Shown piece by piece: positions 165-64,000 of a stretch of 64,000 nt of DNA (within the stretch, counting starts at the first letter, position 1; every line of letters begins with the position of its first letter). The notes under the pieces were generated by a model. The model worked only from the letters and a program-made list of their open reading frames with translations, made no database searches and was not told the DNA's origin. Source of the DNA: Morchella semilibera. Lineage: Eukaryota; Ascomycota; Pezizomycetes; Pezizales; Morchellaceae. Where the stretch lies: the NCBI GenBank assembly GCA_009192285.1, contig WBVU01000010.1, positions 1,114,111-1,178,110 of the forward strand, written 5' to 3'. The translations under genes were made by a program, and so were the position numbers.

Positions 165-653
165 TTTTTCAGTTTTTGTTTCTGATGATGAAGATGGAGC
201 AGGTTTGTTTCGTTTGAGGGGAAAAGTAGGTACTCTACATGTATTAATAGTACTCAGGTAGGTATGGTTTCGGATCGGATAAACTCTTCGGGGCTGGGGT
301 GACGGGAGCCAAGGCTCTTCTGGTTACACTTGCGGGATTTTGGCTCATCTGGGATCACTCGGTGGCAGTTGTGGTTAGGGGTATCTTTACCTTTTTTTTT
401 TTTGTTTAATTCATACTCGTATACAGCCTTCCGGCTATGACGGCTGGGGTATCTTTACCTGCATATATACATGTACTTACGAAGCACGAGTTACTGGTGG
501 CTATAGTACTAAAATATGTCGTCAAGAATAACAGATAAATTATGCAGAGCTGTTTTTGATAACTACATGTATACAAGCATGTTCATATTTCTGACAAGTG
601 ACATATGTACATAGATATTTGTAGGTATAGGTATAAGTACAGCTTATATGTAT
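165..653. other. intergenic, AT-rich
   Basis: This region lies between the start of the reductase gene and the 3' end of the TilS gene. It holds a T-run near 392-402 and three copies of TACATGTA (about 236, 468 and 563). No coding potential was seen. Confidence 0.5.
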
Positions 654-2189
654 TCAATCCTTGAACCGGATTTCATACTTCGCATTCTGGAACTTCAATC
701 CCAGAGATGGCAGGGCAGCTATAACCTCGTCACCCTCGCCATAAATATCCTCATGCACATCCACTTTCCAGAATATAGCCGGTACAGTGAATCTCAAGGG
801 TCCCTTTATCTCGGAACCGAGGGCCTCTCCAACCCTTTGATGCATCCTTACGGAGATACTTTTTGCTTTACTCCTCAATGCCTTCATATCCGAGTCCTTG
901 AGGATACGGATGATGCTGCGGTGTCTCGGCGGCGTCTCTACTCTTATCCACCATCGGCCATCCCACAAAACCCACTCACTCATCCCCGCCCCTAGTACAT
1001 ACTCCTCCTGTTCCTTGTCCTGGTGCGAAAATGGTTCCCGCCTCAACTTCCAACTTTGGTCCCCGTAATAAGTCCATGTCAAACCCGCAGAAGTGAACGT
1101 ATTTATACTCTGTCTGTTCTGTGCGCCTAGTACCATCTTAAACGCATTTGTCATGTGCCTTGTCTCTACTCTGGCTGCTGGCGTCACCTTTTCTGTAATC
1201 ATGATCAACAATCTCTGAAGCACTGCAGGACTGATGTCCTTGAAAAGCTCCAGTCGGTTCTTTGGGAACTTGAATTCGAGCGCGCCAATTCTTTCTTTAA
1301 CGGTGATCTCACAGTGCTTTTCGATGAGGCTCTGCGCCTCCTCTCTTACGGAGCGATTACGATCTTCAGCGCGGGTTGCGAGAGAGACTAGGGATTCGCG
1401 CTGGAGGGCACGGGGGAGACGTGAGGGTTTCGTGAGAAGATGGCGCACAGTATTACGGCGGGTGTAGGTGGGGTCATGGTTTGTTTTGTCTTCAAACCAT
1501 TTAACTCCATTTTCGTCGCATGTTGCTTGTAGACGGTCCTGTACGCATGTAAATTATGGTAATTATTATAAGCCGTATAGACTTTAGACTTATGTAAGAA
1601 CTAAAAGGGCGTCAACGGATGACCATACCTTTCCTACAGTTAAGAAGGGCCTTCCCACAGCTATTTTATTCGCACTATAGATATCTCGAGACTCTGGAAT
1701 CCTCGAAAGATACTTCATGCCCCCCAGCCCATCCAACCTACTCCCGGAGATCAACCTCAGCATGACCGTTTCAGCCTGGTCATCTCCATGGTGCGCCAAC
1801 AAAATGTTATCCACTTCGTTCTTAATGCACGCCTTGGCCAGTGCTTTAAATCGGGCAGTCCGGGCTCTTGTCTCAAACCCCGCCTTGTCTATGTCATCCT
1901 CGCCCCAGGATAGCGGTATCACATGAGGGAGAAACCCGTATGACTCCAGGATGTCTGCGACGGAGGAGGCTTCATGCGAACTATCGGGCCGTGCGCCGTG
2001 ATCAATGATGAAGGCATGGACCTTGCAAATTTGCTTTTGTTTTAGGAGCTGATGAGTGAGATGTGACAGTGCCATTGAGTCGACTCCGCCGCTCACGGCG
2101 AGGCCTAGATGTTTGGGCACATTGGGCCAGAGGTTCTGCAAGAGGGATTTGTACTCGGGAAGCGATATTGGGAGAGCGCGGGGGGGCAT
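654..2189 (-). CDS. tilS: tRNA(Ile)-lysidine synthase-like protein (TilS/MesJ family)
   Basis: Two exons, 2189-1629 and 1538-654, joined in phase 0 across a 90-nt GT-AG intron, give 481 aa. The N-terminal PP-loop ATPase motif SGGVDS is at residues 33-38, with the IDHGARPDS and HHGDDQAET motifs typical of the MesJ/TilS N-terminal domain further on. Just after the intron comes the family's D-x-T-N-x-D-x-x-x-x-R-R-N-T-V-R element (about residues 198-215), which confirms the join. TilS uses ATP and lysine to convert C34 of tRNA-Ile(CAU) to lysidine. In fungi such proteins are presumed to act on the mitochondrial tRNA, which I infer rather than see. The start is the first ATG before the PP-loop. 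It is divergent from PET8. Confidence 0.9.
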
Positions 2190-2377
2190 GATTGGGAGGT
2201 TCTAGAAGTGGTGAAATAATCTCTTGAGGCCAATGATGAGATGAGCAACTGCCGCCAAGGTCTCAGAGCCTCGCCGCTGTAGCCTGTAATTTATCGGTAT
2301 CTACATACATGTATTTATCATATCTTTAGAATAATATATCTCCCTCACCTCCCTCAGTTCCACCCCCTCAAACCACA
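2190..2377. promoter_or_regulatory. bidirectional promoter region, TilS/PET8
   Basis: Only 188 bp separate the two divergent start codons, so both mitochondrial-function genes probably share this control region. It holds one TACATGTA palindrome near 2308 and a CT-rich leader just before the PET8 ATG. Confidence 0.5.
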
Positions 2378-3317: not shown

Positions 3318-3712
3318 GGCTATATCGTTTATACCATTTCTAGGGAATATGGAATAAGGTGCGTGAGGCGTAATCACGTTGCAACACATGAGCAATTAGA
3401 GGATGGCCTGGTATTATTTGTAAATAGAAATACTATTATTGAGCATTGGAATAGTATGTGATTGATAGCGTTCTCTACACCTCATAAATATTCAGACTGT
3501 GAGTGATCAATCAAGAAGTAGCTAATTGAATGAATTAAACCTTCAAAATTTGCCTTCCAGTTATTAATTCGTACACAAAAAAACGCCAAAAGGATTCCCG
3601 GCTTGTATCGTAGGCTGGACTCCACTAAAAGAAACACCGGACACCCCCAGGTCCACCCCATCTGACCTGGACATCGGCAGCTGCCATCACCGAGAACTAA
3701 ACTGCGCATCCT
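3318..3712. other. intergenic between convergent PET8 and RPB10
   Basis: About 395 bp of 3'-flanking sequence between two genes pointing toward each other. No coding or repeat signal was seen. Confidence 0.5.
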
Positions 3713-7731: not shown

Positions 7732-8559
7732 CCAGGATACATGTAGGGATTTCCTTTTGTTTTTTAAAAAAAAAGTTGAGGTTGTATCTTGTATCTATAC
7801 TATGCGCTGTCTGTTCATTTGTCTCTCTCCTTCTCTTTTTCTCTCTCTCTCTTTCTTTCCCTCTTTTTTTGGTCTTTTTTCGATTTCCTTTCCCCCTTTT
7901 TGTAAGATAACTATTTTACTCAAGCTTGGTGGTTGCGATTGTGTAGGGTGCGCAGGGTGGGGATGGGGGACAGGGGCGGGGGCGGGGTGTTAGAATACCT
8001 ATATACTTCTTCTGATGAGAGAGCGATATGGCTTTGTATTGTTATTTCGGGATATTTATTGGGGTTGGTTGGGAGAAGTTAAGTAGTAGATGGATCTGAA
8101 GGTTGTGAATACATGTAGGAAAGCATCATTTCAACAGGTTATTAAATTTTAAATAGTGTGGAGTATGAGGTCACGATGTGCAGAGTATAATATATTATTA
8201 CCCTTAAGTTATTGATTCCGACCTATAACAGGGGGTCAGAATTTGTATGTTAAGTCAATTATCTCCTGGGAGGTCAGCATTTACAATACAAGTCAATGAT
8301 CATTCAAACATGTCTCTTATCACAACAATCTGATTGTCTTGATCCCAGCCACAACGTCATGCACACAACAACCAAACACACAGCACAGCACAGCACAGCA
8401 ATCGATAGCTCCCAAAAGCACCACCAATAACCTAAAAACTAACAATCTCATACATATCTCCAATCCCCCCCCCCTCCCCTTCTCTCTCTCCTCCCCCTCT
8501 CCTCTCGCCCAATCCCAATACGCTACACTCCCCCACCCCCTCCCCCTCCCCTCCCCACG
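7732..8559. other. intergenic, NAN1 3' flank and VPS16 upstream region
   Basis: The first part is T- and CT-rich (about 7750-7905), consistent with a 3' UTR. The last 100 bp before the VPS16 start are a C/CT-rich leader. Two TACATGTA copies occur near 7738 and 8112. Confidence 0.5.
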
Positions 8560-15580: not shown

Positions 15581-15951
15581 GTGGTGGGTTAGTGAGTGTA
15601 TATAGCCGTATACTTGAAGAAAGGGAATCCCGGTTTGGACTTTGGCTGTATGGTGGGCGCTAATTTGATGGTGATTCCTCTCATGAGTAACTGAGCTTTA
15701 GCAGTATACGGATACAATCTATTATGTACTAGATTGCATCCGTTTTAAAAGTTTCTATAATATGATTAGTCGGGCACATGAGAATACCGAAACTCTACCC
15801 AAAGGGTATAAATAAGGGGACATAGAGGAAGAATGCATAGAGGCCCCCGGGGGGGAGGGGAGCGTAGCCCCCAGTAACAGCTATACTAGAAGCCCAGGAG
15901 AACTTGATATCCATACTCCAAAGTAGAGAAGCACCTACGTACCGTAGAGAG

Positions 15952-15985
15952 ACACAACTTGCGGTCACGAGGTGGTAACCCCTAG
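15952..15985 (+). repeat. 34-bp dispersed repeat, copy 1
   Basis: Shares 30 of 34 bases with 16434-16467, including the exact stretch CGAGGTGGTAACCCCTAG. The four differences are all transitions. Confidence 0.7.
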
Positions 15986-16120
15986 CTCATCATCCGCCGA
16001 ACCATACAGAGCACCCAAGGCTAAAAAAATAATTAAATGATAAAAAAGCCGGCAACAAAAGACTTACGTGATGAGTATCATCCCTCAAGAGCGTCGCTAC
16101 CATATTGGGCATTCTCATCA

Positions 16121-16195
16121 CCGCTCCCACCAGGGTTTGAACCTGTATGTGGTCATATGACGAAGCCCAGTGTATTACCACTAGGCCACGCCACG
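16121..16195 (-). other. tRNA-like unit with A and B boxes (decayed tRNA or SINE head)
   Basis: On the minus strand, TGGCCTAGTGG (16188-16178) matches the RNA polymerase III A box and GGTTCAAACCC (16143-16133) the B box, at exact tRNA spacing. The T-stem forms four pairs. The acceptor arms do not pair and the D-stem is poor, so this is not a functional tRNA. A tRNA-derived SINE head or a decayed tRNA fits best. Confidence 0.5.
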
Positions 16196-16433
16196 ATGCT
16201 TTTGTTTGTTACGTTGTAATTTATGAGTGGAAAGATCCTTTCCTTGGCAACACATCAAAACCTGCGAACTGAATTGCATCACAGGGCAATGAAAGGTCAA
16301 ACTGGCGGTAATTGGGGGGGAGGGAGGCCGAAGGCCGCCGTATGAAATGTCTAGCTGCCAGAAATGGGAATTGGGAACTAGAGTACATGTATATGTACCT
16401 ACCATATAAGAGAGAGCTAGATGATTAAAACTT

Positions 16434-16467
16434 ACACAACTCGCAATCGCGAGGTGGTAACCCCTAG
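16434..16467 (+). repeat. 34-bp dispersed repeat, copy 2
   Basis: Partner of 15952-15985, in the same orientation. Together they bracket about 450 bp that hold the tRNA-like unit. A weaker related piece (GGTGGTAACGCCTA) is near 17060. Confidence 0.7.
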
Positions 16468-18679
16468 TATCTTGTACTATATTGATATCTGGATTAACGT
16501 GAGTAAGGAGCTGATTAGTAATGCACCGGTTTCTCTCCTGCCAAAGTGCCAAAGCCTTCGAGCTGTTGCATCAATCATGCACTGGTTCCTCGAGCTACTA
16601 AATAACGAGTGAGAACGTATGATTCCCACCGCCAACAGCCAGACCTAAAACCATAACGCAATTTTATTAGCCCAACACGCCCACGGAGACAAAAACGTAA
16701 AGACATTATCCGCTAGCGGTTAGTATGAAAGAGTTCCGTGTCATAAATCAATCTCATAATATAACCTAGCACCACTGTTTTTGTGGGGAACCGACTAACT
16801 ACGTATATGTAGACATACTCCATCATCGGTAACTGCAAACCATCCCTTCATTGAACCGCTTCTAGCATAAGACATGGTAATGCTATGCAATCCCCGCGAG
16901 TAAGCCGTGGGATTGAGAGGTGAGACATGCCAGCATCAAGAGTGTGAGGGGCAGCTGCAGGTCAGTGCGATACCGAACCCCAGTACATGTAGTTAAGGAG
17001 TGTCAGTATTTGTAGGTTTCTGTATGGTGGTGCTGATAGCAAGCTTAATTAATTGGCAGGGTGGTAACGCCTACATACTCAGCCAGAATACCCCTGCCCT
17101 CCCCGTAATATTAGGCACAAGGCTGAATCTATCGGGGACCTTATCTTCAAGACCTCCGAGTGATGATAAATGATGCGAGCCATTCCAAAATTAGAATAGG
17201 CTTCACTTGGCTACCCACCTATTAAGAACACTGGAACTTGTTATATAGGCCTCGTTCATGTACAGCGGTGTCTAGGAAGTTTCTGGAGCCCCTCATAGCA
17301 ACGCACTCGATTTTGATTCCACCAACAACCACAAACCCATATTGGCAAGACCTCCGGTATATGTAAAATGGACTCTGTTCTATACATTTATTTTTCTGGT
17401 ATCTCTATGTTAATGCAGTAGATCGTTTGCTGTTGACTGGAATTAATTGTCATGGTACTTCATGATCAAACAGCCACAAAGCTTAGGAAAACAGATCAAG
17501 GATAAACCTTCAAAATAGAGGTTTTCTAGAATTCTTTTTTTTTAGATATCTGTGATCCTTAGCAGTGTTTCCACTTACTAAAGGTTTACTCTTTACATAG
17601 TAGGGTGGGGGGGGGGGTGGCTCCGAAAACCTCGCTGTAATATAGAATTGATGTCTAGGGCTACAACTCTATCATTGATATACCCAACAATCTTACGTAC
17701 CAAAAGGGGATGTAACGGATAGCATAGTAATATGGTATCGTGAAAAACTTCCGAATTAAATCGGAATTTCAGCCATTATACCGTAGTGTTATGATATTCT
17801 AGCAGAAAAGGTACTGGATACATCCGCTTTTTTAGTAGTGTAGTTTAATGTGCGAGTAAGCTGTCGAGGTTCACAATCTGCTTGAACAGTTTGGGGAAAG
17901 GCCCTAGGCCTGAAACTCAAGATCGATCGCTGATTAATCATTGCACTAACCCCACATAGGCAACTTCATACAATTCCTCCCACGACCCCCTCCACCTTCG
18001 ATATCCGGGGCATTGACACGCTTTAAGAATGGATTTAGCCCTGTATCTCACTCCCAATGGTTTCAAGACTATGGTAGAACGAGACAATATAAGGCATAGT
18101 AAAAAGCTACCCTATTTTGTCTCGTGCTCATCAGTACCTCCTCGTAAAGACTCGCTGTCAACATATAGTCGTTTATATGTCCTTCACAGCGCTTCCCCCC
18201 ATGGAGACTCCGTCACTGAGCCTAGCCTGCACCATTATCTGGCGATACACCCACCCCATTCCATAAAGAGGGCAAACCTGACATCATGCCAAGAACGAGT
18301 GATGTTGTATGAACGGGCCTACTTGGCTTTGATTGACTAATGTATGCAACCCGAAGTTTATGACCGGCCTGGCCTGTAGACAGCGCACCACCATCCATAT
18401 CAGCCTGTGTTTCAACCAAAATACTTTGGAAAGTGGTGTAAATACCCCGCGACCGCCCGTCAACTGATCCCCGTGAGCTAGAGTACAATATATCCTGTTT
18501 GGTGCCAATCGTTGAAATTCCCCTCTGACACTATATATATCTTACATACTATACTTCGTAGATTAAAATAGGTACATACATGTAGGTCAGCACGGAGAAC
18601 TGTGTGGTCGATTATTACATGTACTTACTATCAAAGACTAAAGGGGATTGTATTACCTAATGTATATATATGTATCGTA

Positions 18680-18780: not shown

Positions 18781-18782
18781 TA

Positions 18783-18866
18783 CTACGGGTGTAGGGGTAA
18801 GTCTGGCGACACTGGCCGTAGTTGTAACAGTTCTTACTGTCGCCAGACTTACCCCTACACCCGTAG
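18783..18866. mobile_element. 84-bp TA-flanked miniature inverted-repeat element B
   Basis: Perfect terminal inverted repeats of 29 bp (start CTACGGGTGTAGGGG) surround a spacer of about 25 bp. TA lies on both sides, and the left TA is the right TA of element A. The ends resemble those of element A, which suggests one family. Confidence 0.7.
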
Positions 18867-19068
18867 TACATGTAGTCTATCTCCCGGGTGCCTAAGACAC
18901 CTGCGAAACCCCTCTCATGCATTAGTGTGGCCTATGTAGGAAATGATGAACCAAAGTAAGGCAGCAACCTACGAAGCTTATGGACTCCTTAAGTATTCTA
19001 AAGACTGATAATACAGCAAACTGCTTACAATTACCAATTACCCGGACGCTTTTGACAGCAAATACTCA

Positions 19069-19518: not shown

Positions 19519-20399
19519 GCGGAAGACCGAGAGCAGTAAATTAAACACAATGCACGTGAGCATCTGTTATAGGTTGCCAAATGGAATGAAGAGACCAGCA
19601 GCAGAGCATGTGGCAGTCATGCACCTTTGTCAAGCATCTTATTTGATCTCTAGGCATTGGGTGCCAAACCACATCTCAATACATGTAGTACTACATGTAG
19701 TCTATCGATTAGATAAGGTTCGTGCCACCTGCAGATAAACTCGTCTTCTCGAACATTTTCAAGACATGCATACACGTATAAAAGCTTGCGGTCAATGGAA
19801 GACAGGTCACAAGTGTATTGAAATCAGTTGATCGTTCAACCAAGGAGTCCCATACCGCTCCTCTCCCGGTTACAACTAGTCAATCAATACCCCTGTCTAT
19901 AGTATTCAACAGAAATATACATACATTTTTTATTACATGGATCGGTACACTTCGATCCGATTTGCTACCGCAAAAACTGTCCAATTGTGGAAGTGAAAGG
20001 GGTTTCTTGCACAAGTGAAGAAGCCAATACCATAGTTGCTATCATCTCTTACAGTAAGTTTTATTTACGCATGTAGATGTGCCATCCCTTCTATTTACTA
20101 TGCTAGCTATATCACCAGTGGATACACCCAGTAGTACTTGTAGTATTTAGTACGGACACGATGTATAAAATATGTTTAAGTGTTATAGCACGTTTATCAA
20201 GATTGCCACACCCTTTACAAAGGCTACATGTATCTATTATGCCTGTTAATTCCTTGTTGGTGCCGAAATGTATAAAAGTACAAATTCGATCGACCGAGTG
20301 AGATATCATATGATTATATAACCAAACGCCCCACTATTAGCGATTTTTCTCCTGCAACACCACAGCTACCCAACCCCACCAATCTTCTCATAACCAACA

Positions 20400-24078: not shown

Positions 24079-24209
24079 AATGCTCAGAATCTGGTGCACT
24101 ACAGCCTTGGCAACGTCCCGCCAAAAAACACTATCTACATGTAATTACAATTACCCTATATAGCAAGAGCCCGGTTTGTATAATATGCGATGCACCAGAT
24201 TCTGAGCAT
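24079..24209. repeat. 131-bp inverted-repeat element
   Basis: Arms of about 20 bp (24079-24098 and 24191-24209) are near perfect around GCTCAGAATCTGGTGCA. The interior is AT-rich and has no coding potential. A small foldback element is likely, but its outer limits are unclear. Confidence 0.55.
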
Positions 24210-24467: not shown

Positions 24468-24968
24468 TATATATACATGTATCTAGTGGTAGTGTATGAC
24501 GAACCTCAAGGGTCCCCAAACAAGCCTCCTTGAAAATGGGTTAGGGTTCACTACAAGTGCAATGTGGAATTAGGTACTCAACTCATGCAGTTGAATCTCT
24601 CTATAAGGGTACGTCAGGACCAAAGATTAGTACCATTATAGGGCGCTTACCCTTATACTAAGGGTGATTTTGTATAAGGCATAAACCGTCATTGCTGACA
24701 CTCCTCATGTAAGACCGAAAGCCACACCGACAAGCACCATAGAATTTATTAGCACTAGCCACTCGTTGGACAGCGTTGTCTCGACGGTTTATGGGAAGGA
24801 GATTCGACTGGGTTGCCAAGCAATATCAAAATGTATGTAGGGCTACTCTAGTACCACTACATGTAGTTACCCTGCCTATAACAGAGCCTCAAAAAAAAAG
24901 TTCCCAAGCTCTTTGCGAAAGACCGAAATATCCAACCAACCCTCATTACCCATTGTTACAAAAAAAAA

Positions 24969-27869: not shown

Positions 27870-30172
27870 ATAACTAGATTTGATTATGGGGTAGATAACG
27901 GACAAAACTCATACTTTGTGTCTCGTGTAAATTTAGTTGGTATTCCTCATAAGTAATTGGTCCTTAAGGTATGTATAACTCTTCAATGCGGACAACAACT
28001 ATGTGACGCCCAGGAATTTTACTCAAGGGAAAAGCGGCCACATTGATTCTGAAGGTTTCGGGCCACCTGTTAGTTTGAAGCCCCTGGTCCCGATTCCAGA
28101 CACCTAGGCCCCTGGCTTCGGCTCTAAACACCGGTGCAATTGGTACTGGAAGCTGGATACACATGTACCAATTAGGGGGAAATCCTGAAACGATGTCAGA
28201 GCTCATTTAGACTTACACGATCAGGAATGAACGCTAATGTTTATTATCAACACACACACACAAAACAATTCCTGCCACAGCTCAATTTCTCGGGAAAAAA
28301 AAAATTGATCGTCCTGAATATAATAGGAGGCGGCCTATGGTTATAGCACAGTTAAACCTGGAGTGGAAGCTCGAACGTCCTTTTACACGTAAATGGCAAT
28401 CCATCGCGCCGAGAGGTAGAGAAACACCTTCACCCTAGCCTATCCTTTCATTCAACAACCTCGAGAATTAACTCATACTCAATTAATTGTGGCAGAGAGT
28501 GTCTGCTCACCCCCACAATATTTGCTCTGGCTAGTGGACCTAATGCACTGCGGTTAGGCTCCCCATCCGACATGGGTGACGTGTCACAATATTTCTTCTA
28601 CTCACACTTGTTCCCCAAGATCAAGTTTCTTTTTTTTTTCATTAGTATGAATCAATCAGTTTTCCATTCAGCAGCCAGTCGGAGCAATGTATGAGGCCGA
28701 GTGATATACTATGACCTAATCTAAAAGGAATATTCACCGCTAGGACACCCCCAACGCAAGATGATTACTGATTATTTGCTAAGAGTGTCTCGGGAGACGC
28801 AGTAGTACCCTATTGAGTAGCTAGCGAGGACCAAAATTAAACTAAGATATTCAAACAAGGTGTACATGCAACTGAAGTAATAATCCTCGCCACTCGACAC
28901 ACAAGGAGCCCAGAGAAAACTATCCTCACCGCTGTTGTTTGCTTTTTTGAAGATCAAAGCTTACTTTAAACCCCTTAGACCTACGATGGCCCTCCTTAGT
29001 TAACGTGGTATTTTGAATATGCCGCATCCACCTCGTATTCAGATACCCGAAGATACTGGCGCCTGAATAACGGAACACATAGGACGTTTAGCATCCATAG
29101 CTACACCTATCCCGCTCATATATTGAAATATCGTTTGATTTGAGGTTTCATGTGGCTAATTACGCTATAGGATGTGCATTGCAAGCTTACTCCCAAATCC
29201 TAGCGAACACCTGTTAGAAATAAAGAAGTTTTAAACGTATGATTTGCACTTGGTGATGGCAGCCGCACCACTTATTGATTGGGTCCCCCCCGCTTCTCTA
29301 GTCTGCCAGCTCAGCTAGAGCTACTTTCTTCAGCCAAGGGGCTATCTGTTTGTGTAGTATTGGATCTGTTCCATCTCTACGCTTTGCCTGAGGAATTTTC
29401 TATTACCATAGATATTTCCTCCTGGCGAAATGGTTTGCGGAGATAAAGATCTATGGAAACTAAGATTTGAGTATTAAAGGTTCCAACGGTCCCCCCAAGA
29501 TTATATTCATAAAATCTCATCATAATTAGATGGAATTTGCTTAAGATACATATATCATATCATCCTTACACCTTTTTCTCTGTTACCAGCACCCTTTATA
29601 ATACGCTTTATCACTGTCTCCTCAAAATCTTCCAGACCCAGCGGACTCAGTTACCCTTCTTCGTAGCCTTCCGATATAAGAAACAAAAATAAAGATCTTG
29701 CAAAAAACATCTTCCCAATAAACACCCGGGGACCCGGAAAAACAATTCACTTCGCGCACAAAGAGCGTTCTCCCGGCCTAGAGGAGGTCCCACGGCGACC
29801 TTCGGAAGAGTACATTATTTTACATAAAGACCACTCGACTTCCTATACACACCACAGAGATTTTTTTATCTTTTTGGGCAAACTTTTGCCTTTCCACCCC
29901 GTCAACGCCATCGCATAGATGCCCCCGCCGGCCTAAGCAGCGGAGGTAGATACATGTATGCACACAATAAATATTCCAAATTTATAAGTCCTGGAATGTT
30001 TTAGTGCTGGCTGCAGAGGCGCATAAGAAGGGAGAAGCGGTGTCTAGGGGGGGGGGGGATGTGATAATTGATTTGGGTATTATTATAAAGGGTGTTGGTA
30101 ACAGAAAAAAAGTTGCAAGGGTGGTTGGGCTGTATCGAAAGTAGATTTTCATGTAGTTATATTAAACCGTAT

Positions 30173-30236: not shown

Positions 30237-33200
30237 GTGCGTTAGCACGTTAGCACGAGTCTAGGATTGGTGTCGAATCAAGAGTTTTGGGTGTGCGAGA
30301 TCTAGATTAGATCTAACGTTTTAAACCGGCGGGTATCGTGTCAGACCTATAGAAGAGTGTCAATCCCACATTTGTAAGAGGGTTTCCGTTGCCAAAGCTA
30401 TCCACCACCTTTTGAGATATTTAAGAAATTGATTCCACTCAAAAACACACGCATTTGAATAGTTTCCGGACTATCCCCTACTATAGTTTTCTAGGCCTGG
30501 CACAGTACTAGGTTAGAAACGTTATGTCCTCGTTGTAATTCCGTAATTCAGCAAAAAATTTACGTAATCACGATCTTGTTGGAGAACGGCGCTCTAGTTA
30601 GTAATAAAGTTAGCCAAGGCACGCGCAGAGAAATAGCAAGCTTCAATCACATGGAACTTTACACTCTTACAAGGCTCGGCGCATGTCTTGGCGCTGCGAG
30701 TCTGAATTATGGGACTAAAACGATCTGCCCCACAGGACAAACCCTTCCGTCCTACGTTTCCTTTGCCAAGATAACCCAATACAGATGGGGTTAGAGCGAA
30801 AAACTTGCATTGGCGTAGATAATGTGATGCATACGCTACAATGCTAGATCACTAAACTACAACAACTACAACAACAACAAGCTACTGCGGCAATTATAGA
30901 CCACATTCTAATTTTGATTTTATTAGATGTAATACGAAGTACTCTACATTTATCCTACCGGCCATACAAGATTGCAGCTCATGATTCGAATTTGGCAGTT
31001 ATGACCACCCATAATAGTGACTATGTCATAACGCAGATCAAGCCATAGAAAAGAGGGGCAGCAGCAAAAAGGGTCATCAGTTGCGGAACCTATCAGGCGA
31101 ACCAGGCCTATGACTAGTACTAAAGACAGCTTTCAACTCACTGCATCTGGGTCACAGCAACTACATGTATCTACATATAGCGTTTATTTATCGCTAGAAT
31201 ATATGGGTACAGTGGCAGGAGCGTAAACGTATGTACGTATACCTAATACAACTGGCTTACTACCAGAATTTCAGCCCCGATATAAAAACTCTTACGTCAA
31301 TAACTAATTAGAACTGAGAATCACCTTTTTGGTAATCATGATTATAGGGAAAGACCTATATTCATCCATTCAAAATTATCAACTTCACAATCCTAGCGGG
31401 GGGTTTATACTCCTACCTAGAACATTATCATGGCAATTAACACCGACGGCGTACTATGATGAATGTTGAAGTGGATACCTTGAACCTGTCTGGGCGGCAT
31501 AAATACATTGTTGAATTGGGTAGTGTATCGGACCTTTATAAATGGTGAGATCTATCGCTTTAGAACTTGCTTGAGATGGATCTTTGGTTCACCTGACATA
31601 CAAGTATGGGGGCGGTGGGGTCCGTAGGATGCATGCAGGGAATTAAAGCTTCTAGATTGTAAAACGGGTTATTGGAGACAAGTATGGACCCTTGCAAAAA
31701 TGGTAAAGTCGTTTCCCTTCGCTAATTGGAACAGGCCATCCAATCTGCTTCTCATCCCCTCATAACGCGTAATCACTATTCCACTGTCTGTGACCTGCCT
31801 ATCTGAGGATGAACGCCTCTCTATTGCCACACTTCCAGAGCTGTACTACATGTATGTATAGTACATACTACTTGAGGGGTATCCTTTCTTCGCCTATACT
31901 TGCATCTTCAAATTAATCAATCCAGCATTCGCTCGCGCGCACAGCGTTTAATAATTAAACGCGGTATATTTCTCTAAGCCAATGATCTATTTAGGTGACT
32001 TGCGCGAGTGACTAGTGTTCACGCGCCGTCACATTCGACTCCTATCTGCCTGGCTACGTGGGAAGTAGTAGGTACATATAGTTGACCTGTCCCATGCCCT
32101 TCCTTGGCATTAAAGCCTGTTATATGTCCCCACTTTATGAATTACTACTAATCAGGAGAAGGCTGAGCGCGGGGAAAAACAGTTGTACTTCGGGATTCCT
32201 GGCTTCCTGCTTGCGGCATAAATTGCAAACCGTTATCACTCTTCTGGATGCGGCCGCGACAGCGTGCATATTATGATTTGAATAATGTCGGGCTGACCTC
32301 AATCCCCCCCATCCCACTGGATAGACTAACCTAGTGATCTCTTGCAGGAAATCCGCATACCCGCCGAGAAGAAATATTGCACCAGAGATGCTGGTCAAAG
32401 GCCAATGAACAGAAATAACGGCTAAAACCTAACCCAAAATTACTTATGGATATTAAAAGAGTCAAATGATGGCACTAGAACCAGTCCTCGGTATTACCAC
32501 ACAGCGGCCTCTCTTTTCGAGTAAAGAAAACCAAGTCTAGCGCCAGGGGGCGCAAAACTCTGGTTGAGAGCTGGAATCTACCTGGCACTGATTCAGAAAA
32601 AATAGCTAATTGGGTCAATCAAAGTTTCAAGAATAATTACTAGCATATACTCAAGAGTGAGAAGGAAACTACAGTTTTTAGGGCTCGGTATTGCGTATGC
32701 AGAAGTCACATATGTCACAGCTTTTGTGTAGAAACGATTATGAGTCTCATGGGCTAAGTTATCAAAATACTATGCACGGCACACTACCAGCGGCCCTAGA
32801 AGATTTTTAAGACTAGGATCACAGCTACTATCCGGTCAATACTGAGATGGTTGGGTCTAGGTCCGGATTTAGGGCAGGTTATCGTTATGTTAGGGCCAGT
32901 GCTTTGGAAAAGCCAGCTCTGTTTCCATGTCGATCGAGAGCATAGAAGTCCTAATCTCCTGCACTTGCGTGTGGCCAAGGAATACCCGCAGGTAAACTCG
33001 GGGTGCTACTGACGAAGCCTTACAAGGCCTGCGAATTGCGCACCTTGATCCAGACACAAGTACGGAAGTCTTTGGCATGAAACCCTGCATAAACAAGGCT
33101 ACAGGGGAACGAAGGTCAGGGAAAGGCTACCAACTATCACTCAACCGCTCAATAAATTCCCTTTAGGAAAAGCCACTCATGTTTCAGCGATAATGAGCCA

Positions 33201-38349: not shown

Positions 38350-39392
38350 GATTATAGGTGCGCGATGTATGAGGGTAATGATGGGCAGGGTATAATGGGG
38401 GGTTGGAGAAGGCAGAAGTGGTGTGTGCGTTGATGGGTGCTGCGCTGGGTGCGAATATACTGGGGGTTCCACAACAAGGAGGTTGCCACAGGTCGTCCGT
38501 CACAGGTGAATAACGAGTGAGCGTTGGTGAGGTAAGATAAATTTATAAAGCAATCTTTCTTCCCCTTCAATTAAGTAATGCAGCTAATTCTTCCACTTCT
38601 ACTGCGGTTTTAAGTTATGATTTCATTTGGTATGTGTATGGTGAGGAGAGAACGTGGGTGTTTGGGGAGAGAGGGGGGGGGGGGATAAGGTAATGGAGGA
38701 GGATGAGTGATAGATATTGTATTGTAGTTAGAATGGAAGGGAGAACGCAGTGGATGCTTGTTGTATCTAAAGTACCTGTTATCATGTAAACACTAGCTGT
38801 CCATATTAATATCTACAAGTATGGTATAAAACATACCGTACCTGTACCCATATGTACCCTGCTACCCTACCTGTCATAGAACAAAACGCCGAGTGATGTC
38901 GCGTGCACCGGTCAACACCGATGTCTTGGTTAACGTTACCTGTATGTACCGACATTTACTACATGTAGCTATCACTTCTCCCACCCCCCTCCAATGACGA
39001 CACAGTCCAGGAGCTAGAGAGAGAGAGAGAGAGAAAACACATCACGTACGGAAAATTAATCTCTCTTTCTGGGGTTGTTACTACATGTATATTTACCCCC
39101 CTTCCAGAACTTATTATAATTATACTAATATCACTATTCTTACGACCACTACTATTCCTACTACTGTACTATCTATGAATTACTACTAGGATGTAGCAAA
39201 TAAAAGTTCAGACCTCATCTACCAATGGCATGCAACCATGAACAACGTAAAACAAACTCCATACACATGCAGATGCACCCCCCCCCCCCCCAAAAAAAAG
39301 AGGGGGGATAAAAAATAAAAAATAAAAAAATAAAAAATAAAAAAATAAAAAATAAAAAAAACATAGAGAACAAGAAAATCTCCACACGTGCA
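38350..39392. other. intergenic, TAF1 upstream
   Basis: Contains a G-run near 38670, a GA dinucleotide run near 39017-39034, a C-run near 39277-39290 and a long A/T repeat (39308-39361). No gene was seen. Confidence 0.5.
39308..39361. repeat. low-complexity TAAAAAA tandem tract
   Basis: About eight alternating six- to seven-base TAAAAA(A) units lie just downstream of the orphan membrane-protein gene. Confidence 0.85.
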
Positions 39393-40154: not shown

Positions 40155-42074
40155 GTTGTAGGTATGTTTTATAATGCTTTTTTTAACCCTTTGATTTATC
40201 GAGTCTTTTAGGTATAGGTACCCGTGGGTACTTGTATTTTATAGATGGGATATATCTGAAGCCGGTGTGGGGTAAAGTTTGAACAGGATAGATAACCTTC
40301 GTAAATGGAGGGAGTGTATCGCGTTTTATATCATATGCAGGTCTCTCCAACCTAATTTTAAAAAGGTACCAAGTTGAGGCTCTGCTCTACCCCCCCTCTG
40401 CCCATACTCCTGATTTAACCACACATGAATGCAAGAATGCGGCGCTGTCACTCGGAAAGAGTCACACCGCCAACTAGATAGATTTGTGAACAGGGTATGA
40501 TCTCATTCATAAGCGACTGGGATTGTGTTTTACACCAACCACTTGACCTGTGAGCATAATTCTCAATCGGCGTGCAGTATTATGATAGGATAGGTAAGCA
40601 TTGTGTGGTCGTAAGGTCGACTATCAGCACTCTACTCCAGAAGCACACTACATCATAGATCATGTCGCAGCCACCCCCGTGCTGCGGCGCCCACGGAAAC
40701 ATATCGTTATCCATCGAAAGAAGAAATATATTCTAAAAAAAGGGGGGCTCTACCGGATGGCTTCAGCAACGTGTGCCTACAAATCTCTCTGTGCAACTGC
40801 CCCGAGTGATGTCGCGTGATGAAACCAATAGGTATGGCCCTGGGTATATTACATGCAGTATGCACTGCACGGCGGGCGGCGTCAATCTCGGCTATGACTT
40901 TACACGCAGCTACCATTCTGCTAAGGGAGCAAACTTAGCCTCAGGGACCGATAAACCGGTCCGGACGGAGTACCGAAGGCGCCTGTGGGAAGTATGGAAT
41001 CTGATTTGCCTGCATACATGTATGTACGAGAAGTTGCCTCGGGGCTAACTGAGCCCCAGGAACGAGATACGACCCTGACATGTTCAAGGCTGAAAGTTGA
41101 AGGTTTGGCCTCGGCGGAGGTTAAGACTCCCAAATGCCAGGCCGTCCGGCATGCCACCCCTCCAAGGTAGGCTAGAGTGTTGCAACTATTGACAGAGTTC
41201 GTGCTTGGCAGACCATAACTTGCCTGTTTCAAGATTGGCCCTACATGAAGTTTTGTAAGGAGAACAGGTCTGATCCAGGTTTTATATGTTTAATGAAAAA
41301 AGCGCATTCCCCCTAATTCTATTCCATGGTCATCACCAGACCACTTTGCCAAGAAAACGAACCCAAGTTTACCCAAACGAAGCCTAAATTTATAGCGGAT
41401 ATCAATATTACATGTACCTTGAAAAAGTGGCACGCCAGACAGGCAAACTTTTTAGGTCCCAGACGTATCCTTAAAGGCTACATCTATATAGGTTAGAGGG
41501 CCATATAACCCTAACCCATATGTCACAACACTGAAACGCGGGGTGGATCGACGTGCAGGGCCGGACGAACCCTGTAACAAAAATTCACCAGATAAATGAA
41601 TGGGAGCACTTATGCCTAATATATGCTGGCCCGGGTTTCAACATTTTATTTCCCCCCCCTGACTCGCAAACCTTCCTTTTGACATGTATCAAGTTCCCGT
41701 TTCCCTTATAAGAGCTCGTGATTCCAATATCTGTTATCCCCGGCGTCTTTTACCCTAGGAAAGTGGAATGGATGCATATGCCATGTGATATAGCGGATGT
41801 ATTTCCTTCACCTTGATCGCAGCCTCTACGTCCTAGCTCTCCTCCCACCTTGTTTTCATAACTCGAGCCTCGTCGAGCAACCGATGAAGACGACGGAGTG
41901 GTGTTAGCCTTCTTTCTCTACGGCAAGGTCATTTACATTCATTATACCGCTAGCCGGTTCTTTTTTGACCCCTTTTTGTGTTTATTTGACTTTCTATTCT
42001 TCTGTACTCTTCTCGTTTCATTTCACTCTTGGGCGGGATCCTTGAGGGTTATTTGAACTCACCCGACTTCCATC
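40155..42074. other. 1.9-kb gene-free region
   Basis: No convincing coding sequence. A 17-bp string, CCGAGTGATGTCGCGTG (about 40802-40818), repeats one at about 38891-38907. TACATGTA copies lie near 41018 and 41409. Confidence 0.5.
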
Positions 42075-44238: not shown

Positions 44239-44870
44239 TGCACACCTACATACTAATAAGGAAGTGGAAGTATGGAATCGTGCCGGGCCTATATTCCACG
44301 CTCCCTGTGGTATTATCAAGATCTTTATTGCGTGTTCTAGTTCTAGTTTTACTTGCGGTATTGCTAGAATATATATACATGTACTTAATTACGAAAGTGT
44401 GCGCAAGTCTAAATTGCTGGCTGCGATTCATAAACTATCACTCGAGTGGTCGATTTCTTGGCGCTCTCACGTGACAGGTCTTAGTTACAGTATATACATG
44501 TTTATATTTAAAAGAAATCTCGCCTGATCATCTTTTTCTACGTAGTTAAGTATATAAAGCTCTTATGGGCATAAGTGGGTTCAGTCATATATAGCATTCG
44601 GTAGCATGCCGTTAGACTTTATACCTACATATACTTAGTATCTACATGTACTTAAATCTACTACTACCGCTTTTTGGGATTTAGCAGAGTAAGAAGTTCG
44701 TCCGGAAATCTCACACAGTTCTGGGTTTCTGGCTGTTGTTGAAATTGAGTTCAATAATCAGGGTCTGCCAACATGCAGCGCCAAGACCCGAGACTCGGTA
44801 GCTCCTCAACGTCACGACTTCAGATCTCCAAGCTCAACAATCAATACCGCGACTACTATCGGCTCCTGTC
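44239..44870. other. intergenic, upstream of VPS11
   Basis: AT-rich, with TACATGTA copies near 44378 and 44644. No other feature was recognised. Confidence 0.45.
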
Positions 44871-49925: not shown

Positions 49926-50198
49926 TATTATTGATTGTATGGAGTAGTAATGAAGGAACGAAGAAAGTCAAGTTGGCTACGTTGCAATAAACAAAACTGA
50001 CATCGGCCTATGAGGCTCTACACACATACATGTAATAAAAGCTTGGCTGTTTTAGCGCAACAAGTACATGTAACTACACTACTTCTAGATACAGTTAGTC
50101 CTGCACATAGAATAATAATCTACATGTAGTCTCGTCCCATCCCTATTTTGGTGTGGTTGGAGATGTAGGTAAAGCATGTAGTGTTTTATGTATTTAAT

Positions 50199-50606: not shown

Positions 50607-50607
<1 letters not shown>

Positions 50608-50702: not shown

Positions 50703-50795
50703 ACCTACTCGCCAAATTTTTAAGTCTGTTGATTTTTTAGGTGTAGTTGCCACGCAAAATATCAACAGACCTTAAAAATTGGCGAGTAGTTGCCT
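50703..50795. repeat. foldback element with about 30-bp arms
   Basis: Left arm 50703-50733 and right arm 50761-50790 pair around CTACTCGCCAAATTTTTAAG and CTGTTGAT with one or two gaps. The loop is about 28 bp. No clear TA flank was found. Confidence 0.65.
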
Positions 50796-51610
50796 TAGTC
50801 GCTACAAACAGTGTTCATTCAGATCAAACAAATGGAGAAATTAGACAAAGGAGTGTTTTTTAGGTTTTGGAGACATGGTGTGGGTTGCTTATCGGAGCTT
50901 CCTGGGAATCTTTCTAGACTATAAGCTCGGGGATTATATGTACTATGAGGAAATAGTTCTATATTATAGTTTTATCTTCTATCCCCCCCTTTTAAGGTGT
51001 GCTTGCCACAAAGTCTCTCTAGAAAGAACACCTTGGGCTCAAAACGCAGCGAAAGACGCCTGTCATCAAGTCTAGTTGTTTCCCCGTGATGCGGTGAAGC
51101 ACGTTCCAATCCTGACTCAGAATTGAGCTTTCTGGTGATAAGTGCAGAACTGTAGTGATCCGTTACCGTCCGAATTATACGCTGCAACTTTCACACAGCC
51201 TCTAAGCAAGTACTTATTTGGTGGCAAAGCGAGGTATGATCTAGAAGATGAGATTTCTTCCCTGTCAGGTAGATATCTTGGCATAGGAATCTGAACGCTA
51301 GCGCAAAGATACATGTAGGGTTACTCAGCACTACTTGGCGCAGAGATTTTTCATGACAAGGTCCGCCGCGCTTCCTTTTTATACTTCACAACATCCCCTT
51401 TCTCCCTTTTCCATCAACCTCCCATCCCACTCCCTTGCTTTTATTGAACGTTCACGCGTCAAATTAGCAATCTATCTCATCTCTCAAGTATCATATCTTT
51501 CTGTTCCCACAAAAGATTATATACATAAAAGCCTACTACTCATCGCATTCTTGTGATCGGTTAGGATATTCGTGCTTGAAAAAATTTCATTCACCTAGAC
51601 ACAGTACAAC

Positions 51611-54230
<2,620 letters not shown>

Positions 54231-57200
54231 CCTCACTTTCCAGCATAATAATTTTTCGGCAGGCCTAGATTTCTTCGCTTGGGGTTCTTATACTTTTTTT
54301 CTTTCTTTCATAGATTGGTTTACTCACATAAAAGGGGTTTCGTTTCAATCATTCATTTGATATTCAAAATAACGTTCACTATCGACATGTTTCGAGCTCT
54401 GCTTGGCAATTATGGCCTATCAGAGAATGATTCAAGATTCAATTGATGACAAGAATTTGATGGGGAACAATGAATGTTATAGTTACTTTTCGTATAGCAC
54501 TCAGTAGTAATAAATTCAGACCTGTCTAAAATAAAAAAAAGAATTAACCCGCGCATTTGTGTATGGCTGGACTCTGATGACGGAGGATAGCCATGGAATA
54601 CTGCAAAATAATGAGAGCTCCATCAAAAGTCTAAAATAACGTGTTGACAAGGGAGGGCCGAGATTGGGCTACCCAACAGGATCCCCCCGACTAAGACATG
54701 TAATGGTCACTCGCCTGAGCTGGAGCTTCTCCTCTTCGACATCCCCGTTTTAAGTTCTTGTTTCGGGGGACGGAGCGGAAAAACCTGAGCCTGAGTCTTT
54801 GACAGCAACAGGGCGGGTCTCGCCACATCTAGGTGAGGGGAACTGTCGATTTCTTCGGGAACGCAGTTTGCTTATGGGAATCCCGAGGCAGATACTGCAG
54901 TGAGCAATGAGGTCACTTTCGTGCGTAACCACGTCGAATATGATACATGTGGTTTCCGAAGGGCAGGACGCGTAGAACGCCGACATCACACACACACCGC
55001 GCGCCTCACAGTCCAAAGGATGAGACGAACACCCCCTCAGGTAAGGAGGAACCATACAACACACGATAGCACCACCTCTATAAATTTATTCAATTTTTTT
55101 ATTTTTATTTTCTCTTTTCACACATCCTATCAATTGATAGTCAGGGGGAAGGGATGATGGATGATGAACGGGTATGATGTAACGACTTGATGTACCAAAG
55201 TTGCCAGGATTGGGGGAATCAACTGGCCAAGAAGGAAGGGTTTCTTCGCCAGGAGATGATATCGGTAGCTATACATTGTACTTACCTAATATTTTGAGTA
55301 TGTCTGGTGAGGTGTGCTCCTTAGGCCTCACGACGCCGGATATTCCATGAAGAAGGGGCATGATCATGAATTAATAATGTAAGGAATATGGGAACCTGTG
55401 ATAATGACCACAACAGCACCAGCAACGAAGATGCTTCTGAATATCGCCAAGAGGAATGAAGCAATCGATCGGGCATATCTATCTACATGTATGTTTTTTT
55501 CATCCAATGGTTAATTGTTGGTGGGGTAGACGGATGTACCCTTGGGGGGGGGGGGGTGTTCCGGTCAAAAAAACCATTGAAACTTTATTTTGCCGCTATG
55601 CCGGCAAAGTGCCTGATACGGAGTAGCTCGAAGCGGCAAGCCGCCAACAAAAGATCCAGAAAAAACTCCGCCGCGTTGATTGACATTCGGCCAGACCCTG
55701 AGCTGTAGGTACTTTCTACATACATAAACCGGGCTCAACTAGGGCTCAAAGCAACTCTATGTATGGTTGAGAACCACGAGGTTTGTCAGAATGCTGGTTG
55801 AGACCTTAATTCAACGATGCTCAATTGACGCGATAGAGAAAGCCTAGAATACATGTAGATTAGAATGCTGTATGTCTGGTCTAAATCATCATACACGTGC
55901 GCGAGCACACACAGGCAGGACGACACAGCATATCCTGCATACCTCACTTCATCATACAGCAATTGCGCCCCGTGCGGATGCTTGTATCTTCCCTCTACCC
56001 CCCCCCCCCCCCCGCGCTCTCTCTCCATAAATTTCCCCCATGACACTACGGCGTCATACTCGGCCCAGATAATCGGCAATCAGACCGGCCTGGCCGAGTT
56101 CTTTCTTTGGGTGTTCTCCCTGAATAGGGCCACACCCTTCCGACCCGCGTGGATGGCTGGCTGTCTGCTTGGAATTTTACATTTACATTCAACACACGGA
56201 CAGAACTGTGGCTTGACTGCTTCTCTTTTCTTTTTTATCCCCACTTTCTCCATGGGACGACACCTCTAGCCGCCCATCATAACAGGACTGGCTTAGCAGA
56301 GAACAACCAATGGATCGATTATCGAATTCTACGAATCGGGCTATCGCCGCGTAACGCAATCAAAACCCAGTATTCCTTCCCAGCCACCCATCATCACTGG
56401 CACTGCACCACAAGCTGCTACTTACTGCCTACTGCTGCCCTCAACCCACCCCCCCCCCCCCGCTTTTGCGTTGAAACGAACAATGCCATCCTCCTAGGAA
56501 CAACACTGCGAACCCATCACCCCCCCCAAATCGTAAATTCGTAGTCGCCCAGGAAATGGGATACCAGATGCACGCAGGTAACGCCTTGTGGAATGTTCAA
56601 TGGAATGTTTCGACTCAAAAGTGCCATCGTCCGAAGCCACGGCCCTGGGTCGTTTTTTCGCGTTTCCATAGATATACGCCCCACCCTCCTTTAGTCCACT
56701 TCGCGTATTGTTGCTACTAATGGCACCACCGCGCATTTGTGTTTCCTGCATGGAGCTGTCATGTCTTTCAGGAAGTCATATTATTATTTTATTTTTTGCC
56801 ATTTTTTTATGTATGTACCTACACTTTTTATCCTGTTCGCCGTCCCCAGTGCCATCGTCACTTAAAGTTTACAGTGGGGTTTTGCGCTGCATGCGCCACA
56901 CTCGTGTTGTGTTCACGTGAGTAGCATCCATTCGCCCGCCACTGATTACCCATTTTTCTCGAGTTTTCCATGGCATGAAAAAAAAATATCCAGCTTCGCA
57001 CAATTTGGAATCCAGGCATTTTTTTAATTCCGCGTGATCTTTTGCACGCGGCCGTTGACCGCTGGATTTTTTCCCTTCAGAAAAAAAAAACTGTTGTCGC
57101 CAATCGAATTGTTCAGACGGAGTGCCTCATGTGATAGGTAGGGAAAGGACCGGAGAAGGAATGGAAAAGCTGTTGTTCCGGGGACTACTGAATAAATCTC

Positions 57201-61060: not shown

Positions 61061-64000
61061 ATAACATCAATCGGGGTTGTTATTGTCAAGCAGCAACCCC
61101 GTATTTATAAATACTATGCTTTTCGATAAATAAATTTTCACGACATCATGTGCGACGGCTGTCTCCTTCTCGGGTCACGGTTTATTATTTCCCCTTTTGT
61201 TTGGGCACTCTGTGGCGTGTTGATGGGTTGCAAGATGGGAAAGCAAATCAATATCCCCCCACTTATTTGTCAACCGCATCACAGGCCGCTTGCTTTTTCC
61301 CATCCCTCCACCCCTTTTTTTCTTGCTCCGCAAGAGGAATTCGGCACACCGTAAATTGTCTATTACTATTAGCTCGTTTTCAATGTTCATCTTTTTTTAA
61401 AGTTCGTGTACTGTTTCTTCGCCAGAAAAGAAAATATTTTCATGGGGGTTTTGGAGAGTATAGATCTCTACCTTTTTGCTGTTTCTCTTCTTTTTTTCTT
61501 AGGGGGCAGGGTTTCTTTTCTTTTAGATTGGGGGTCTGGTTACATTTCTTTCCTTTCATCGTTTTTTTTTTTATTATTGTTTGCACCTAGTCGACCTTAC
61601 CTTACGACTGGCTAGGGGGGGAGAAACAACGCGAAAGGAGGGAATTGTGCCAAACACCCAGTCTTGTATTGTTTCATTTCTAATCCTTCTCTGCACATGT
61701 TTTTTTACAGGGTGGCTAACTACTTATTGTTTTTAACTTTTCACATTCTGGAAAGTCCCCGGTTTTTTTGTTTCTTCGGGGCTGTTTGTTGATAATTACT
61801 TCCTGTGAGATTTGTAAAATAATGAGCATGTACCGGTAAATAAAGCACAATCGACCTCATTGCTTGCATTGTGTGAGCTGTCGTCATGTACATTTTGGTT
61901 TTTTTTTTTTTCCTCCTGTCTATTCATATCTAGCGCAACTATGCGAATAACTGATCTCTCTCTCTTTTTTTTTTTTGCTTCTTCCTGCCTAAACGCCTCC
62001 TCACGCACAGTCACACTTTATTTCTCCGCCCCAAGATTGACGCGAGAAAAGAAGCTTCTTTTTACGCCATCCGTTTTGCCTTGTCTGTCCGAAAACCTGG
62101 TTTGCGGTAATCGTCTATCTAACGCCTCACGCTAGAATCTCGTTCGCGAAATAGTTTAGCACATGCTTTTTTTGGCCGGGTCCTTACCTATAGCTTCCCC
62201 TCCCCACCATTCTAATCTTTGTTTTTCCTACTGCTTGCTTGCTTGCAGTTGGGGGGTGATTTGGCGGTGGTGGTGTTGATGGTGCGGTGCACTGGTGTTT
62301 CTAGTGCGCTTCTATATCAGCTTCTATCTAGGGAGGGTGGGGGCCTGGCTTTTCTTTTCTTTTCTTTTTTCTTTTCTTCTTTAGCTGCTACGGTCGCTGT
62401 GCGGCGGCGGTGCACTTGATTGCTTGCTTGCTGCGTTAAGGTAGGTAGAGCTAACTCGTTTGTGATAATAGGTTCTTTCTTTTTCTATATGCCTAAATGG
62501 AGCTACTACATAAGTGGCTGTTTATTAATCATTATCTATGTTATGGTACATGTATGTATGTATCTTACCAACAGCTAGGGCGAGTATGCAATATTACCGG
62601 TTTCCAAGTATGTATGTAGGCCTGTCCCATCCCTCAGTATGCGATGGGTGAAGAGTGGCTCACCCAGCACTAACCCCCCTCCCCCCTCAGGGATGGATAC
62701 TCAGTCGGTGGTGTTGTGTGCGCGAGGTGCGATATGATGAAGGATAGGATGAGGGTACATGTATCTAATATAAAAATTTATGGGGCTGACTGACATGACT
62801 GATATTATGATCCTCAGCTACATAGATGGGGCTAACTTAAACACATCGCATAGACACACAAGTAGACACCCAGGTAATGCACATTATGTGGAACCTTTTT
62901 ATAGACCTTTTACAGACTCAGGGTGATCATAGCCTAGCTTTTATGACTAGGATGGCACCCAAAATACAGACCCAATCAATCAATTAATAAAAACCTGCAA
63001 CTATGATCATCACCCCTCACGCCTTCCCAGACTCCGCACACGCAAGTATAACGACAACTGCTGAGATAGAAGGATAACATGGTAAGATATAGAAACACAC
63101 CAGCACCAAGTATCCTACTCTCTACGAGCACATAAAATCACCCCCCCCCCCCCCCATTCTTCAGCGGGGCCCAGGGAAAGGGGAAGGGTGGGGGGGAGAA
63201 GAGTCAAGAATGGTTTGCGGTCATTGTGCAGCCAGCAGCACTGCACCAGTGCCGGTAAATTGCATTTTTGTACACCCACAAAAACGTGCCTTCTCTTCCC
63301 GTGCTGTTGCATATTCCAGCCTGAGCTCACCCTGCAGCAGTACCACATGCAGGGCTCACTGCGTTACCAGCATATCTACAGCCGAAGGGAAGACTCAAAG
63401 GGCACAAAATAATAATAACAATATATTACCAAAGGTAATTTTATTAGGGCAAGCTCGGTAAGGAGCGAAAATCAGGAGGCACGGCATTCTGGACTCCCAC
63501 ATGATCCTTACCTGACACAGAGTGATACTCTTTGCACAGACGATCAATATTAAAGGGCTGGACTCGAACTGGACCATCTGGAACCCTCGGAAGTCGTAAG
63601 CTATGTTGGGCAAATATAGGAGCCGCAGATGCACATGATCCATCCGAACTTCTGCTCAGCTTTTAACAAACCTAACCCAAAGATGTGCCTTCTACTAAAA
63701 CGTACAATTATTATTGATTTGTTATCCCACCGCCAGCCAAACGTGCGTGTGGCTGAAGTTATCTCATGCCCATATCAGCTGCTAAACGGTTCCAACGCAA
63801 CCCTTAGATTTCGTTAGCTTCGATCATGTATGTAGCCTCTACCAAATCGTACCTCTTACAACATTCTTGCTGAGATTTGGGACACCCAACCCAGCTGCAG
63901 CGGCGGCCCGTTCCAGGATTTTTGCCCATATCCTAGTCATGTATAGCTATAGTTACATGCTGTCTAGAAAAATGGACAGGGCTTGAGGGGTACGCTGACA
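61061..64000. other. 2.9-kb terminal region without a recognised gene
   Basis: The first 1.3 kb is T-rich and probably includes the 3' UTR of the Con7-like gene. Beyond that are C- and G-runs (near 62680 and 63140), TACATGTA copies near 62548 and 62756, and a tRNA-B-box-like GTTCGAGTCC on the minus strand near 63553 that lacks a matching A box. Nothing else was supported. Confidence 0.5.

Follow-up and report, generated by a model that had tools for sequence, protein, structure and literature searches.

The sequence taCATGta is known from Caenorhabditis elegans as the excision footprint of the transposon Tc1, and such footprints are called rare there (PMC3520976). The same octamer, TACATGTA, is Phytophthora motif-1, which 12,070 genes of three species carry upstream (PMC3520976), and M93, which P. 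infestans promoters contain 4,150 times (PMC3597505); the former report proposed a homodimeric transcription factor and disputed a footprint origin from conservation and abundance. Also comparable are HIP1 (GCGATCGC) of cyanobacteria, likewise a highly iterated octameric palindrome that dominates word counts (PMC4390886), and the Stowaway / Tc1-mariner footprints of grasses, where emptied sites likewise retain a few bases between two TA and one TA can show several footprint variants (PMC1925063). We investigated TACATGTA in a 64,000-nucleotide stretch of Morchella semilibera (Ascomycota; assembly GCA_009192285.1, contig WBVU01000010.1, positions 1,114,111 to 1,178,110), hereafter the window, and in further DNA of the same assembly. 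The octamer occurs in large excess that is confined to non-coding DNA, has TA-rich palindromic flanks, and at one TA corresponds to a clean CATGTA insertion in two copies of a dispersed repeat.

Similar to the Tc1 footprint, the M. semilibera octamer has the identical sequence, was inserted at TA with TA on both sides (in one repeat family), and has a palindromic TA-rich target preference, in a genome that contains DDE_3 transposases. Conversely, such footprints are called rare in C. elegans (PMC3520976), whereas the octamer is here the strongest 8-mer outlier of a 264-kb sample; no CA...TG donor was found for this candidate footprint in about 341 kb. Phytophthora motif-1/M93 shares the octamer, its high abundance, and its location in non-coding DNA near genes, but it is an oomycete promoter motif (PMC3520976, PMC3597505), whereas the octamer of this fungus has no peak close to genes. 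In addition, the Phytophthora sister palindrome TACCGGTA (M94) was not enriched here (1 versus 1.6 expected). The grass footprints have CT...AG-type ends and come from one locus (PMC1925063), whereas here one palindrome dominates genome-wide.

The window contains 34 exact copies of TACATGTA, compared with a mean of 0.75 and a maximum of 3 in 100 dinucleotide-preserving shuffles and 0.8 to 1.2 expected from models of order 0 to 2. A preliminary description, made by eye, had given about 35 copies where roughly one would be expected by chance, and both figures agree with ours. The window is part of contig C9 in an assembly of 56,756,124 bases and 23 contigs, in which TACATGTA occurs 22,206 times and the reversed word ATGTACAT 3,723 times; scaling up the shuffle mean of the window gives about 670 expected copies. 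The preliminary description had said that a genome-wide count near expectation would speak against the excess, but the count is far above expectation and the excess stands. Distinct sites are fewer than 22,206 because some contigs are near-duplicates, which inflates the genome counts: C9 and C10 were 99.95% identical over 9,962 bases, with five 1-base indels and no substitutions. Matches at corresponding places suggest near-identity of C12 and C13 too, and perhaps of C21 and C22. Among 8-mers with at least three different letters (one- and two-letter words were unranked), TACATGTA had the top z-score in a 264-kb sample, with 95 copies versus 5.6 expected (order 3). This sample consisted of the window and twenty 10-kb stretches, including the duplicate locus L027.

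Base composition or a low-order artefact was ruled out as the cause of the excess by the shuffles and Markov expectations. General palindrome enrichment was also ruled out: the 63 other palindromes of the same G+C content were found 216 times versus 185.5 expected, and among the 16 palindromes TANNNNTA, strong enrichment was limited to TACATGTA (89 versus 3.5) and the microsatellite TATATATA (42 versus 9.0). C-to-T repeat mutation (RIP) was rejected, as TpA/ApT never reached 1 in the stretches measured. No tRNA or Rfam family was matched when the window or the dispersed repeat was scanned. Among the papers listed by literature searches, none was seen to report a TACATGTA excess in a fungus.

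Coding DNA was called with a self-trained hidden Markov model, which assigned 37% of 324 kb as coding and will miss short exons. Among the 95 copies of TACATGTA in these 324 kb, none was located in the 118,670 coding bases, one was in a presumed intron, and 94 were in the 203,348 intergenic bases, where 4.3 were expected (order 2). Leaving out the duplicate locus L027 gives 90 copies in 314 kb. This is consistent with the earlier impression that no copy lies inside a coding exon. The excess is confined to non-coding DNA; we do not claim depletion in coding DNA, because chance alone predicts only 0.3 to 0.9 copies there. HIP1, in contrast, is common in coding DNA. Eight loci chosen for holding the motif (L001-L008) were kept out of the densities. 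The coding/intergenic split, the gap-type densities, and the pair-spacing list keep repeat-sharing loci or L027, whereas the gene-space counts (decay, TANNTA, gene-distance, and palindrome tests) leave out L027 and five repeat-sharing loci, namely L012, L014, L015, L018, and the joined 60-kb stretch L030-L035.

An insertion at TA could be read in a dispersed repeat, found by genome search and alignment, which occupies positions 15717-16479 of the window and has dozens of copies, mostly 74 to 95% alike. Eighteen further copies were aligned with that of the window, and 18 of the 19 contained at least one TACATGTA. Insertion genotypes were taken from a search of the whole genome with a pattern that allowed a gap of any length from 0 to 30 bases. 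At the first TA, 13 loci (14 rows, C9 and C10 counting once) had the empty form CATAACTAGAGTAC, with the core ACTAGAG, and two loci (L044 and L048) had the filled form CATAACTACATGTAGAGTAC, with the core ACTACATGTAGAG, which differs by an exact insertion of CATGTA; at one TA of one repeat family, TA and TACATGTA therefore occupy the same place. The pattern returned 33 rows in all, comprising the 14 empty rows, the two filled rows (+6), and 17 rows of scattered lengths that resembled the reversed control (23 matches), one of them being the empty form plus four bases; about one row per given gap length is expected by chance. Two separate insertion events in L044 and L048 are likely, because the filled copies are only 87.3% alike and are not mutual nearest relatives. 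At the second TA, 15 rows comprised 11 empty ones (10 loci) and four with an additional 6 bp (three loci), with no other length and no match in the control.

Further insertions at TA that end in a second TA were found in the same repeat, namely GGTA, CGTA, CTTA (two copies), TCTA, TTTA, and again CATGTA, of which CGTA, TTTA, and two CATGTA cases are also readable as tandem duplications. Among pairwise indels, the share running from TA to TA was 10/34 at 4 bp, 7/26 at 6 bp, and 3/25 at 10 bp, versus 0/47, 0/27, and 1/22 at the odd lengths of 3, 5, and 7 bp; homopolymer insertions were excluded, and the tally is crowded by alignment variants in the TA-rich tail. An empty-site search for 130 sampled copies in the fetched DNA gave usable data solely from this repeat. 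L026 and L027, one locus represented on C9 and C10, differ by five 1-base indels only, and no TA/TACATGTA polymorphism was readable there.

In the flanks of TACATGTA, counting both sides, T occupied position -4 in 100 of 190 cases and A position -3 in 114 of 190, with little shared beyond four bases; this preference is that of a palindromic TA-rich target around TA. A further TA started 10 bases from the start of the octamer, on either side, in 38% of cases, versus 5 to 14% at the other offsets shown. Genome-wide, TANNTACATGTANNTA occurred 3,317 times and so includes 15% of the TACATGTA copies; the reversed pattern, with 251 occurrences, includes 7% of the copies of the reversed word. Regarding the extended forms named in the preliminary description, CTACATGTA is indeed common, but ATACATGTA is equally so (preceding base: C 69, A 67, G 36, and T 18 of 190). 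Among the 16 TANNTA words ranked by excess, TACATA was first (119 versus 55.3) and TATGTA fourth (121 versus 63.9). These two would be the one-ended scars expected of a CA...TG element, and we count their ranking for an origin by excision.

We consider, with a probability of roughly 0.48, that most TACATGTA copies are excision scars of a Tc1-type transposon, that is, CATGTA inserted at an intergenic TA. The likeliest maker would be a Tc1-type DNA transposon, or small non-autonomous relatives of it, with the ends CA...TG. Such an element would insert at TA and duplicate it; on exit, a two-base stagger, as known from Tc1, would leave CA and TG, and end joining would seal TA-CA-TG-TA. An intergenic TA would in this way become TA-CATG-TA, and the scars would afterwards decay neutrally. 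This account supposes that the other copies arose like the insertion in the dispersed repeat, that the cause is a transposon with the ends CA...TG, and that neutral decay followed. A broader version, in which a Tc1-type transposase or a domesticated relative has rewritten intergenic DNA by thousands of identical 6-bp CATGTA insertions at TA and the Phytophthora motif is the same scar, seems somewhat unlikely to us. The genome yields 69 matches to DDE_3 transposases, a family that we take to cover Tc1-type elements; 57 of these are above the family cut-off, and more than 10 belong to open frames that run for 366 to 426 codons, with some of them on duplicated contigs.

Small inverted-repeat elements are also present in the window. 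One at 18781-18868 spans 88 bases including both TA, has 32-bp arms that are 100% complementary, starts with CTACGGGTGTAGGGG, and has a relative at L009 4816-4903. A second TA-flanked element (50706-50788) starts with CTCGCCAA and has an 89.8% match at L019 835-922. Nested inverted repeats at 18912-19475, with 56- and 40-bp arms, suggest a decayed element with another inside.

The one-step variants of TACATGTA were compared with those of the 63 control palindromes in gene-space intergenic DNA, which holds 89 intact copies. Transitions numbered 75 versus 26.3 expected and transversions 73 versus 46.3, whereas the controls gave 1517 versus 1381.5 and 2926 versus 2829.3, respectively. With a surplus of about 75 variants, decayed copies would be almost as numerous as intact ones. 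Transitions exceeded transversions at every one of the four half-site positions, with C-to-T the highest (38 versus 10.9). Such a variant excess, with transitions first, is as steady neutral decay would give.

Several observations weigh against an origin by excision. A search of about 341 kb (24-bp arms, up to 5 mismatches; loci partly overlapping) yielded no TA-flanked element whose terminal repeats begin with CA. The small TA-flanked elements that are present start with CT, and the full scar predicted for them, TACTAGTA, shows no enrichment (4 versus 3.3). The clear insertion case is a single TA in a single family, and another TACATGTA, a possible template, already stands a few bases away; the additional 6 bp at the second TA may equally be a tandem duplication of ATGTAC. 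Among 10 insertions in other repeats of the repeat-rich loci, the lone TA-type case was a tandem duplication. TACATGTACATGTA, in which the scar's own TA would have been reused, was absent from the gene-space sample, yet it occurred in eight among 100 clusters listed. As for decay, a degenerate binding site could also give the variant excess; the commonest variant, TATATGTA (C-to-T), has a flanking TA on 16 of 76 sides, above background but below the 38% of intact copies; and the genome-wide total of one-mismatch words was 38,153, versus 41,979 for the reversed word, a crude control. The sites also lay slightly more often on the upstream side of the nearest gene (48 of 74 upstream and 26 downstream, with upstream bases making up 53%; p = 0.047).

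This upstream bias would suit an alternative that we regard as somewhat unlikely, namely that TACATGTA is the site of an abundant homodimeric DNA-binding protein, a transcription factor or chromatin organiser, selected in intergenic DNA. A palindromic, sharply bounded octamer with an excess in non-coding DNA only is what such a protein might produce, and the octamer is identical to Phytophthora motif-1 (PMC3520976) and M93 (PMC3597505). Gap densities also followed the order divergent (0.62 per kb, 12 sites), tandem (0.37, 26 sites), and convergent (0.26, 9 sites) when all loci were used, although these values are based on 47 of 94 sites, the remaining 47 being in gaps cut by a locus end. However, there was no sharp peak by genes: the 30.9 kb lying no more than 300 bp from predicted coding DNA had the lowest density, with 10 sites, compared with 64 in the 90.1 kb beyond (p = 0.016, gene-space). 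The densest bin, at 750-1000 bp upstream, held 12 sites and comprised 8.7 kb. Pairs within 38 bp numbered 2,666, about 10 times the value for a uniform scatter of 22,206 sites, and the starts were 10 bases apart, one helical turn, in 19 among 100 pairs listed, with varied intervening bases. Clustering as such is not special to TACATGTA, however, because the reversed word, with 129 pairs versus about 8, exceeds its own uniform expectation even more. A genome count of this size is very large for a regulator, the enrichment of one-step variants with transitions ahead at all four half-site positions does not favor a maintained site, and an insertion polymorphism at TA would be an abnormal route for such a site to arise. 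The binding site suggested in the preliminary description accordingly keeps some ground in the weak upstream bias, the 10-bp pair spacing, and the Phytophthora promoter octamer, but we prefer an insertion scar at TA, which that description did not list, although this reading too is linked to transposons. The three ideas in that description, which our results support in part, were a binding site, a piece of a decayed repeat, and a replication or chromatin signal.

An Irx-like reader, as suggested for Phytophthora, was not supported: the sole Homeobox_KN match of the genome (E ≤ 0.001) has WFINARRR, with Ile50, in a helix located past an inferred intron. Ala50 in the recognition helix of a TALE homeodomain marks Irx, and the one Homeobox_KN match at this threshold does not have it.

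The proximity of an existing TACATGTA to the observed insertions raises another alternative, local templated copying, in which slippage or microhomology repair at TA would copy CATGTA from a nearby TACATGTA and spread it like a cryptic microsatellite with no transposon. Every CATGTA insertion observed was within about 10 bases of another TACATGTA, and one or two are readable as tandem duplications. The related words TACATACATG and GTATGTA were also enriched in the 264-kb sample, and TA recurrence peaked at even spacings, of which 4 was the highest (1.56), with AT behaving alike (1.37). Nevertheless, most copies are isolated, with a median distance of 595 bp to the next TACATGTA, and slippage would not single out CATG, whereas among the 16 palindromes TANNNNTA only TACATGTA and TATATATA were strongly increased. 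We consider templated copying improbable.

It is very improbable that a single dispersed repeat family left all the copies as its remnants. The copy at 16384 lies inside the dispersed repeat, whose aligned copies nearly all hold TACATGTA, but with 40-base flanks it was the only one of the 34 window copies to match across the site in other fetched DNA (about 350 kb), and a family with copies spaced 2.5 kb apart would give many matches to itself. When 5.1 kb of the window was searched genome-wide, at least one of its eight copies (16384) was inside the repeat and a second (18867) bordered a small inverted-repeat element that has one match on C4; 40 of the 574 candidates were scored, so these are lower bounds. 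In addition, the five repeat-sharing loci contained no TACATGTA in 47.5 kb of non-coding DNA versus 28.6 predicted from the rate elsewhere, which contradicts this explanation for the DNA examined. The suggestion in the preliminary description of a recurring part of one decayed repeat is not supported, given the single matching copy and the small flank preference beyond four bases; a single transposon family with homologous copies, which it had named as a possible undoing of the excess, does not explain the sites either.

If the copies are scars, excision footprints, called rare in C. elegans (PMC3520976), can become the top over-represented word of non-coding DNA. Motif finders that rank by abundance would then mistake footprints for regulatory sites, and Phytophthora motif-1/M93 would be due for re-examination. 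Our results suggest that abundance and a footprint origin need not be mutually exclusive, which is not proof of that origin here. Should the Phytophthora motif be the same scar, a "transcription factor motif" obtained from word counts would be a transposition fossil, possibly used later as a binding site. If the copies are instead binding sites, thousands of palindromic sites would serve one regulator or chromatin protein of this organism, which has still to be named.

By exact match, and with no strand assigned, the window copies of TACATGTA are at 236..243, 468..475, 564..571, 2306..2313 (within TACATACATGTA), 7738..7745 (16 bp beyond a predicted coding end), 8110..8117, 16384..16391 (within the dispersed repeat), 16984..16991, 18577..18584 (within TACATACATGTA), 18616..18623, and 18867..18874, which shares its first TA with the right-hand end of the element at 18781-18868. 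They continue with the pair at 19680..19687 and 19692..19699, then 20225..20232, 24136..24143, 24474..24481, 24858..24865, 29951..29958, 31162..31169, 31847..31854, 38960..38967, 39082..39089, 41015..41022, 41409..41416, 44376..44383, 44643..44650, 50027..50034, 50065..50072, 50121..50128, 51310..51317, 55484..55491, 55850..55857, 62547..62554 (followed by TGTATGTA), and 62756..62763. The 29 positions named earlier by eye are each within 3 bases of a true copy, and those it left unnamed are 18616, 41409, 44643, 50027, and 51310.

Other words and pieces were also noted. A second enriched word, ATCACTCG/CGAGTGAT, occurred 44 times versus 4.6 expected in the intergenic sample of the gene-space loci, and within 1.5 kb of genes it was downstream in 18 cases versus upstream in six. 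The telomere-like CCTAACCC was over-represented in the 264-kb sample (27 versus 5.4). Proteins and short introns are in keeping with a filamentous ascomycete, and an 18S rRNA query gave no match. A broken 5.8S-rRNA-like piece at L029 1501-1672 scored 39.5 bits, below the family cut-off, although about 60 bases at its start agree well with the family.

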